From Gemmatimonas groenlandica (lineage in GTDB: Bacteria; Gemmatimonadota; Gemmatimonadetes; Gemmatimonadales; Gemmatimonadaceae), in the NCBI RefSeq assembly GCF_013004105.1, contig NZ_CP053085.1, positions 3,596,001-3,660,000 of the forward strand: a DNA stretch of 64,000 bases, in the 5' to 3' direction. A program made the position numbers and the translations under genes. Numbering within the stretch: the first letter of the stretch is position 1; each line of letters opens with the position of its first letter. Shown here one piece after another: positions 22,862 through 62,624 of the stretch. Under the pieces are notes generated by a model. It saw only the letters and a program-made list of their open reading frames with translations, was not told the DNA's origin and ran no database searches.

Positions 22862-23060
22862 TGCCAGACGGGAACGGCAACGGCTGAACGGCAACGGCTG
22901 AACGGCAGCTGCAACAGCCGGAACACGGAGACCACCGATCACACCGAAAGAACCACAGATAAGCCAAAAGCGCCGTTCGCTTATCTGTGTTGATTCCGTG
23001 AAGATCCGTGGTCTCCGTGTTCTGGCTGTTGCTGTTGCAGTTGCCGTCGCTGTTGTCGCC
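22862..23060. repeat. Intergenic long inverted repeat, family B, copy 2
   Basis: The left arm contains GAACGGCAACGGCTGAACGG and CCGGAACACGGAGACCACCG. The right arm contains CCGTGTTCTGGCTGTTGCTG and GTTGCAGTTGCCGTC. The centre forms ACAGATAAGC paired with GCTTATCTGT. It lies in the divergent region between the DUF808 gene and the alpha/beta hydrolase. Bases 23061-23204, the rest of that gap, hold nothing I recognise. Confidence 0.85.
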
Positions 23061-23980: not shown

Positions 23981-24160
23981 GCAACGGCAACGGCAACGGC
24001 AACGGCCAGAACACGGAGATCACGGAGGCTACTGAAACAACACAGATAAGCAAAAAGCGGCTTTTGCTTATCTGTGTTGTTACGGTCAGATCGGTGATCT
24101 CCGTGTTCTGGCTGTTGCCGTTTTTGCTGTAGCTGTTGCCGTTCTTGCCGGAGCCGTTGC
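23981..24160. repeat. Intergenic long inverted repeat, family B, copy 3
   Basis: The left arm has four CAACGG units, then CCAGAACACGGAGATCACGG and ACACAGATAAGCAAAA. The right arm mirrors them as TTTTGCTTATCTGTGTTG, GATCTCCGTGTTCTGG and CTGTTGCCG. The core hairpin is nearly perfect here. It fills the gap between converging genes (stops at 23978 and 24177). Confidence 0.88.
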
Positions 24161-59488: not shown

Positions 59489-59651
59489 ACCATTGCGAAC
59501 AGCAACAGGAACAGCCAGAACACGGAGACGACAGATCACACCGAAACCGACACCGATAAGCAAATAGCGCTTCTAGCTTATCTGTGCGTATTCTGTGAAT
59601 TCAGTGATCTCCGTGTTCTGGCTGTTGCCGTTGCTGTTGCTGTTTCTATCC
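59489..59651. repeat. Intergenic long inverted repeat, family B, copy 4
   Basis: The left arm has GCAACAGGAACAGCCAGAAC and ACACGGAGACGACAG, then CGATAAGCAAATAGCG. The right arm has GCTTATCTGTG, GTGATCTCCGTGTTCTGG and CTGTTGCCGTTGCTGTTGC. It fills the gap between converging genes (stops at 59486 and 59657). Confidence 0.87.
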
Positions 59652-59656
59652 CGGCC

Positions 59657-60820
59657 CTAGAACCGATAGATCGCCGCAATGCCCGTGATCGACGGCATGC
59701 GGTCACGCGGCACCATCACCACATCGCCGCCCATACGCAACACGATCTCGGCGAGATCGTCGAGAATGTCATCGACATGCGGATCGTCGAGCTGCCCGTG
59801 CGAGACATGCGCGGTCGCGCGATCGACGCGGCCTGGCACGACACGATCATCGTCGACCAGTAACGTGCGCACGCGTCCGCCGAGTGCCGCCATGGCGACA
59901 TCTGAGAGCGCGTCAGAGGCGAGACCGCGCGGAAGGCCGGCCCCGTATTCATCCATGTAACCCTGCAGACGTGCCGTGTATCGCGGCTCGACGATCTCCC
60001 ATGCCTTCTGCCGGAGCTCATCAGGCGAGAACGCGTCGGGATTGCCGGCAATCGCATCAGGCAGCAGGTGCGTGTTGTGGCTCACCTCGCGGTACAGCGC
60101 GTGATGCTCGGGCAGCGCAGCGAGCACCATCGGCAGTCCCGAATGCTTCGCATGGTGCTCGAGAATCGCCCGATCGACCACGCGGAAGAACCGCTCCGTG
60201 TCCTTGTCGATCTCGTCCTTGCGTGAACCCGATCCGGCATGCATCGCGATCTGCGCGCCACCGTGTCCAAGTTGACCGACAGAGTTGAACGCGGTGTGCG
60301 CGTCCGTGACCTCCTCGCCGAGCGCCTCGATGAGCGTGCGCGGCACGGCCGGGTGCAACACGATTTCGTCGACCGAATCACGATTGCCGTGAAAGAGCCG
60401 CACATGATCACGCGTGATCGCGAGCAGCTGGAATCGATCCGCCGACTGTAACACGCGCAACAGCGGCTTGATGTGGAACGAGTCGGCCACGATGGCGCGC
60501 TCGGGGACCGCGCGTTGAAGCTTGTACACCTTGTAGAAGTCGGCGTGCAGAAACACCGCCAGCCCGTCGAGCGAATGCGACCAGAATCGCTCGCTGTCGG
60601 CCAGATCATGCAGCGGCGCGGTGAAGGCCTCCAACTCGGCGGCGCCCAACACATCGCTCAGCGACGATTCCGCCTGTCGCAGCAGATTGCGAAAGCGCAC
60701 CACATCCTGTTGCGACTCGGGAAAACGCCGACCTGTGGGAAGGTAGATCGATACACACGGACCGGTGCGATCGAGCAACAGCTCGGGGAAGTGCTCGACC
60801 GTTGGCGTGGTGAGCGTCAT
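59657..60820 (-). CDS. BaeRF-type (bacterial eRF1-like) protein
   Basis: ATG 60820 overlaps the preceding gene's stop as ATGA and gives 387 residues. The layout matches the bacterial/archaeal-eukaryotic release factor families: an N-terminal domain (PCVSIYLPTGRRFPESQQDVVRFRNLLRQAE, LAVFLHADFYKVYKL, VPERAIVADSFHIKPLLRVLQ), a middle RNase H-like domain (FQLLAITRDHVRLFHGN) and a C-terminal L7Ae-like domain ending in IVLRMGGDVVMVPRDRMPSITGIAAIYRF. GHGGAQ at 185-190 sits near where eRF1 has its GGQ loop, but is not identical. A role in ribosome rescue or stress is inferred. It is coupled to an HPF-like gene. Confidence 0.78.
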   Translation of the reverse strand: MTLTTPTVEHFPELLLDRTGPCVSIYLPTGRRFPESQQDVVRFRNLLRQAESSLSDVLGAAELEAFTAPLHDLADSERFWSHSLDGLAVFLHADFYKVYKLQRAVPERAIVADSFHIKPLLRVLQSADRFQLLAITRDHVRLFHGNRDSVDEIVLHPAVPRTLIEALGEEVTDAHTAFNSVGQLGHGGAQIAMHAGSGSRKDEIDKDTERFFRVVDRAILEHHAKHSGLPMVLAALPEHHALYREVSHNTHLLPDAIAGNPDAFSPDELRQKAWEIVEPRYTARLQGYMDEYGAGLPRGLASDALSDVAMAALGGRVRTLLVDDDRVVPGRVDRATAHVSHGQLDDPHVDDILDDLAEIVLRMGGDVVMVPRDRMPSITGIAAIYRF

Positions 60821-61182
60821 AGCGACATCCCTTGGTCGACCGCAGGACGGTCGAACGGATCGACCCCCTTCGGCGGGCGAAGCTTGGCCAGACGCTTGTC
60901 CAGCACGCGAACGAGCTTCTCGCGCGCGCCGTGAAACGCGGCCGTCAGCGTCGCGGCTGAGTGCGTCACCGCCGTCGGGTCCTGCCCAGCCACGCGTGCT
61001 TCGAGCGTGCACTCCTTGTCGGACGCGCCGGACTTCTCGGCGTTCGTGTCCCGGAAGTGCACGCCGATCCTGGTGATCTGGCTCGAAAAGCGGGCGAGCG
61101 TGCGATTGAGATCGGTCTCGACTTCACGCATCGCCTCGTCCCGTCCGTCGACGTGGTTGTCCGTATTCAGCTGAATGAGCAT
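60817..61182 (-). CDS. Short HPF/RaiA-like ribosome-associated protein
   Basis: The 121-residue protein has the S30AE/HPF fold: MLIQLNTDNHVDGRDEAMREVETDLNRTLARFSSQITRIGVHFRDTNAEK and CTLEARVAGQDPTAVTHSAATLTAAFHGAREKLVRVLDKRLAKL. It is a short form without the C-terminal dimerisation domain of long HPF. The usual basic patches are weaker than in E. coli HPF. By family it binds the 30S decoding region in stationary phase. The ATGA overlap with the BaeRF gene indicates coupled translation of the pair. Confidence 0.82.
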   Translation of the reverse strand: MLIQLNTDNHVDGRDEAMREVETDLNRTLARFSSQITRIGVHFRDTNAEKSGASDKECTLEARVAGQDPTAVTHSAATLTAAFHGAREKLVRVLDKRLAKLRPPKGVDPFDRPAVDQGMSL

Positions 61183-61316: not shown

Positions 61317-62624
61317 ATGCCGATTTCGAATACGCTGCGTTGCGCTGCACTTGGATTGGTCGCCGCACCGTCCCTGCTCAGCGCGCAGAACCGCAAGCCG
61401 GTTACCGATGAAGCCGCCGTGATGGCCAGTGCGAAGACCGTCCACGCGTCCGTGCTGTCGATCGACACGCACGTCGATATCGCGCCCAGCAACTTCTCGG
61501 CGACCGGCCCGAACTACACACAGAAATTGCCGCGCACGCAGGTCGATCTCGCCAAGATGGAAGAAGGCGGACTCGGAGGGGCATTTCTGGTCGTGTACGT
61601 CGGACAGTCACCCAAGCTCGACGATGCCGCGTTCGCCAGCGCCAATGCGCAAGCGCTCGAGAAGTTCGACGCGATTCACCGCCTCACCGAACAGCTGGCG
61701 CCGTCGCGATCCGAAATCGCGTACACCGCGGCCGATGCCCGACGCATCCACGCCGCCGGCAAACGCGTGATCTTCATCGGCGTCGAGAACGGCTTCCCCA
61801 TCGGCGCCGACATCACGAACGTGCAGAAGTTCTTCGAACGCGGCGGCCGCTACATGTCGCTCGCGCACAACGGTCACAGCCAGCTCTCCGATTCGAACAC
61901 CGGTGAACGCGACGGCGTGTGGCTCCACAACGGCCTCAGCCCACTCGGCCGGCAAGTGATCGCCGAAATGAATCGGCTCGGCATGATGATCGACGTGTCG
62001 CATCCGTCGAAGCAGTCGATGCTGCAGACGATCGCACTCTCAAAGGCGCCGATCATTGCGTCGCACTCGGGTGTGCGCGCGATCTGCAATCACAGCCGTA
62101 ACATGGACGATGAACAGCTGACCGCGCTCAAGAAGAACGGCGGCGTGATCCAGCTCGTCGCGTTCAACAGCTACGTGAAGTGCGATCCCGCGCGCGACCT
62201 GCCGCGTGAGCAGGCCCGTGCCGCCGCGATGACCGATCTGCGCGCGGAGTTCGGCATCACCGCCACCGATCGTCGTGAACAGCAGGCGCAGATCCAAGCG
62301 CTCGCCGACGAGAAGCGCAACGCGTATCTGGCGAAGCAGGAGGACATCACCGCGCGACGCTATCCGTCGGATCCGCCGGCGAACGTGAAGGACTTCGTGA
62401 ACCACATTGACTACGTGGTAAAGCTGATCGGCATTGACCACGTGGGCATCAGCTCGGACTTCGACGGCGGTGGCGGCGTGGACGGCTGGCGCAACGCGTC
62501 GGAATCGCTGAACGTCACGGCGGAACTGGTGCGCCGCGGGTACTCGAAGAGCGAGATCGAGAAGATCTGGGGCGGGAATTTGCTCAGGGTCATGGAGCAG
62601 GCGGCTGCAGCGTCGAAGCGCTGA
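61317..62624 (+). CDS. Exported M19 (renal dipeptidase-like) metallopeptidase
   Basis: The 435-residue protein has a signal peptide (LRCAALGLVAAPSLLSAQ). The dinuclear zinc site is intact: H52 and D54 in IDTHVDIAP, Glu in FIGVENGFPIG, His in MMIDVSHPSKQSM and SHSGVRAI, and the late Asp in GISSDFDGGG. SLAHNGHSQLSDSN is another conserved stretch. The enzyme cleaves dipeptides in the periplasm. An insertion of about 45 residues (RAAAMTDLRAEFGITATDRREQQ) precedes the final zinc motif, as in several bacterial relatives. It converges on the TldD-family gene across a short inverted repeat. Confidence 0.93.
   Translation: MPISNTLRCAALGLVAAPSLLSAQNRKPVTDEAAVMASAKTVHASVLSIDTHVDIAPSNFSATGPNYTQKLPRTQVDLAKMEEGGLGGAFLVVYVGQSPKLDDAAFASANAQALEKFDAIHRLTEQLAPSRSEIAYTAADARRIHAAGKRVIFIGVENGFPIGADITNVQKFFERGGRYMSLAHNGHSQLSDSNTGERDGVWLHNGLSPLGRQVIAEMNRLGMMIDVSHPSKQSMLQTIALSKAPIIASHSGVRAICNHSRNMDDEQLTALKKNGGVIQLVAFNSYVKCDPARDLPREQARAAAMTDLRAEFGITATDRREQQAQIQALADEKRNAYLAKQEDITARRYPSDPPANVKDFVNHIDYVVKLIGIDHVGISSDFDGGGGVDGWRNASESLNVTAELVRRGYSKSEIEKIWGGNLLRVMEQAAAASKR

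Follow-up and report, generated by a model that had tools for sequence, protein, structure and literature searches.

The window, a 64,000-nucleotide stretch of the Gemmatimonas groenlandica genome, contains two overlapping genes which, judged from their sequences, very probably form a cistron of two genes for ribosome hibernation, a known type of pairing exemplified by RaiA and Balon. An earlier note on this DNA had described a coupled pair coding for an HPF-like and a BaeRF protein. Both reading frames are indeed present on the minus strand and share an ATGA overlap. The features discussed below are:

60817..61182, minus strand: short HPF/RaiA-type protein, 121 aa (PF02482, TIGR00741, PDB 7m4z chain v)
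59657..60820, minus strand: baeRF family 3 protein (Balon homologue), 387 aa (PF18845, NF052287, phmmer, Foldseek)
60817..60820, minus strand: ATGA overlap of the HPF stop and the BaeRF start (from the sequence; also in the related loci L005-L008)
60829..60833, minus strand: AAGGG, putative Shine-Dalgarno-like element, inferred from the sequence
60251..60268, minus strand: GHGGAQ, residues 185-190 of BaeRF, in a loop of unconserved length (alignments of 29 homologues)

The HPF stop codon TGA (60819-60817) lies over the BaeRF start codon ATG (60820-60818), and the AAGGG element is located 8 nt ahead of this ATG within the 3' end of the HPF gene. With this arrangement it is plausible that HPF and BaeRF are made together, and ribosomes finishing HPF probably restart on BaeRF via the overlap. 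A promoter scan, which says little for the phylum Gemmatimonadota, found no sigma-70 site. On the other side of the pair, between the 3' ends of the BaeRF and OmpA genes, lies a REP- or MITE-like palindromic repeat of about 140-150 bp (59498-59638; arms of 48 nt, 81% complementary). Copies also occur near 22911-23032 and 23999-24118; genome-wide, the repeat matches about 25 sites, almost all of them within 3.16-5.18 Mb.

The HPF protein matches the S30AE domain (PF02482) over residues 8-102 with 27.2 bits, above the curated cut-off of 23.7 bits, and does not reach the threshold of TIGR00741, the HPF/YfiA equivalog model (17.9 vs 40.9 bits). By these scores it is a divergent HPF/RaiA-domain protein. 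It contains one S30AE domain, and with 121 residues it is too short for the C-terminal dimerization domain of long HPF. Its sole solved relative by sequence is PDB 7m4z chain v (E = 5.7e-19, 108 aligned residues), the HPF that was seen on the Acinetobacter baumannii 70S ribosome (PMC8263017). This protein is also short and single-domain but differs in its surroundings, as no baeRF is annotated within 3 kb of the gene copy examined (CP040042.1). A dN/dS of 0.11 between two intact copies indicates that the window HPF is constrained. The same genome codes for a second HPF (C1:1624258-1624527), for which blastp finds no similarity to the window protein (P0001). The ORF following this second gene reads like an HPr kinase, and an HPr kinase neighbor is the usual housekeeping position of HPF.

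The partner protein matches PF18845 (baeRF_family3) over residues 129-316 with 161.5 bits, far above the curated cut-off of 31.5 bits, and nothing sets it apart from baeRF family 3 as described by Burroughs and Aravind in 2019 (PMC6514570). Its best NCBIfam match is NF052287, the AOC03_06830 ribosome hibernation family (Balon), yet the score of 186.1 bits falls short of the curated cut-off of 330 bits and leaves the protein outside the Balon equivalog. The sole significant PDB match by phmmer is Balon itself (8rd8_B, E = 1.4e-18); the molecule name of this chain is "Methyl-accepting chemotaxis protein", and the entry is the Psychrobacter urativorans ribosome with Balon and RaiA. The alignment is full-length, pairing BaeRF residues 17-386 with Balon residues 11-368.

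An AlphaFold model computed from eight sequences (the window and related loci) is weak because the sequences are so few (mean pLDDT 62.7); the N-terminal part and the middle domain are usable, and the C-terminal domain is below 50. The top five Foldseek hits of this model are all Balon structures, from P. urativorans and Mycobacterium smegmatis (Msmeg1130). VIA-align Z values are 13.1-13.3 for Balon versus at most 10.3 for eRF1, and the rmsd of about 15 Å is high because the placement of the domains is uncertain. Both phmmer and Foldseek (E = 9.5e-14) thus point to the aeRF1-type three-domain architecture over the full length, with a low-confidence C-terminal domain in the model. The stop-codon motif NIKS of aeRF1 is absent from the BaeRF translation. 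Within the clade of paired genomes discussed below, BaeRF evolves under constraint with dN/dS of 0.07-0.14.

On this evidence from sequence and model, we count BaeRF among the Balon homologues broadly defined but not as the Balon equivalog. Like Balon (AOC03_06830 of P. urativorans; PDB 8rd8, 8rdv, 8rdw), it combines a predicted aeRF1-like fold with the lack of a conserved GGQ, and Balon genes too are found most often beside an HPF/RaiA gene, as was published in 2024 (PMC10901736). In contrast, identity to Balon is only about 20%, the loop that holds GHGGAQ is longer in the window protein, and at the aligned N-terminal site Phe-Pro (RRFPESQQD) takes the place of the Balon His-Pro (REHPAND), an assignment read from the alignment, as the text of the Balon paper gives no residue numbers for the HP motif.

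The earlier note had suggested ribosome rescue as a second function of the pair, and had pointed out that GHGGAQ resembles the GGQ release motif without equalling it. The stretch is present at residues 185-190 (60268..60251) and the protein contains no GGQ, so that the catalytic motif of aeRF1 is missing, as it is in Balon. Conservation of the stretch, the test set beforehand, did not hold: GHGGAQ occurs in 3 of 29 baeRF3 homologues, namely in the window, L005 and L006, all members of the window's clade. It is absent from the L007 protein, which is 89% identical to that of the window, and the corresponding position reads HGGAI in L008 and SGGSS in L009. The length of this loop segment varies from 0 to 33 residues among the 29 homologues, and loop residues 181-197 have pLDDT values below 50 in the model. 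L007 (G014:C499) lost the GGAQ loop by an in-frame deletion of 15 residues, and the same genome has an internally deleted HPF.

We therefore rejected GGAQ as a catalytic motif. That BaeRF serves as an alternative factor for release or rescue, hydrolyzing peptidyl-tRNA through this motif, appears extremely improbable, even though GGAQ is compatible with the loose GxuQ pattern seen in VLRF1 proteins, and a catalytic glutamine persists in a few baeRF families, family 10 above all (PMC6514570). The same study takes low conservation and an unconstrained loop length as marks of catalytically inactive baeRF proteins, and Balon, devoid of GGQ, keeps the peptidyl-transferase center inert (PMC10901736). 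Since the motif is unconserved, the loop is free in length and the Balon-bound center is inert, peptide release by BaeRF is not supported.

The other half of that proposal, ribosome hibernation, gains support by homology, as BaeRF is related to Balon and the closest solved relative of the HPF comes from a structure of the A. baumannii 70S ribosome. Moreover, a single ribosome can carry both Balon and RaiA (PMC10901736). From these homologies we infer that the pair binds and inhibits ribosomes. Under stress, the short HPF would bind the mRNA/tRNA channel of the 30S subunit. The Balon-type protein would enter the A site, probably with EF-Tu as Balon does, span the distance from the decoding center to the peptidyl-transferase center and block translation without peptide release. 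Both proteins would act in hibernation without being an obligate pair.

The local history of the locus, which is marked by a dipeptidase gene upstream of HPF (61317-62624), bears on this last point. Six genomes of the same genus contain the HPF without BaeRF at this position. In five (G001, G004, G013, G018, G023) the gene stands alone between the dipeptidase and an ABC permease; in G029 it is followed by an OmpA gene, and BaeRF is found 133 kb away. Several further genomes of the genus have neither gene between dipeptidase and permease. BaeRF lies directly behind HPF or an HPF remnant in G000, G025, G015, G014 and G011, which form one clade with support 99/98 on a dipeptidase tree that is midpoint-rooted and one gene deep. 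Because the five paired genomes form one clade, the pattern agrees with BaeRF having been placed once behind an HPF that was already there; loss elsewhere could be the alternative.

In three of these five genomes (G015, G014 and G011) the HPF gene is internally deleted by differing deletions, and BaeRF is open and constrained. The remnants of 43, 72 and 30 codons (L006, L007 and L008, respectively) run from the same start to the ATGA overlap. Each of the three genomes has one other HPF (G014 and G015 are 80-82% complete), and a second HPF of the window type (P0001) was not found in G011. Since the HPF decayed next to an intact and constrained BaeRF, the coupled HPF is dispensable and the two proteins need not act as an obligate pair.

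A search of 298 genomes from the phylum at E <= 1e-20 found BaeRF in 22, and 7 of the 30 same-genus genomes searched contain it. Intact HPF occurs within 1 kb in 3 of the 22: the window and G025, both with the overlap, and G302, at a distance of about 760 bp. In genomes with class-level and Bacillota baeRF3 homologues, HPF is located elsewhere. Genes for proteins of about 113 residues upstream of class-level BaeRF3 resembled HPF by length; they were rejected as hydrophobic membrane proteins without a PF02482 match. Such a small membrane protein gene (about 112-132 aa) precedes BaeRF3 in L038, L041, L042, L046, L048 and L051 and is a recurrent neighbor other than HPF. A plasmid of Spirosoma oryzicola codes for an annotated HPF/RaiA protein 99 bp upstream of baeRF, an independent case of the pairing; the other annotated baeRF loci viewed have no HPF annotated alongside, and the viral contigs searched contained no relatives. 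HPF-baeRF neighborhoods were published for several baeRF families in 2019 (PMC6514570). Checked in relatives, as the earlier note had proposed, the pairing does recur, but not as an obligate unit, given the decayed HPF in the clade and the separate location of HPF from most other baeRF3 genes sampled.

These observations leave some room for the idea that the overlap arose as a rearrangement accident behind the resident HPF, with two hibernation proteins acting independently and a coupling devoid of function. We hold this to be the less likely account, though one to be taken seriously: HPF without BaeRF in six genomes, confinement of the paired state to one supported clade and decay of HPF in three of its five members all speak for it. 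Against it stand the recurrence of the pairing on the Spirosoma plasmid and in the literature, and the frame from HPF start to BaeRF start, which none of the three decayed copies has lost. Simulated single deletions keep this frame in 33% of cases, so the chance of three out of three is about 0.037; with three cases, all from fragmented assemblies, at least two of them metagenome bins, and one remnant carrying more than one indel, the kept frame is a suggestive hint only. Following this hint, the HPF frame may have been retained after BaeRF was placed behind it, serving as a leader for translational coupling of the Balon-type protein even in genomes that lost HPF itself, an idea that we offer as speculative and rather unlikely.

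The association of HPF with baeRF, or of RaiA with Balon, is already known from the 2019 and 2024 studies (PMC6514570, PMC10901736). What is new here is how the pair came about and decayed at this locus, together with the idea that HPF remnants may act as leaders. The hibernation cistron described above adds an example from Gemmatimonadota to the RaiA-Balon association. Within one genus, the pair can be seen forming behind a resident HPF and then losing the HPF half while keeping the Balon half, which speaks against any need of Balon-type factors for a dedicated HPF expressed along with them.
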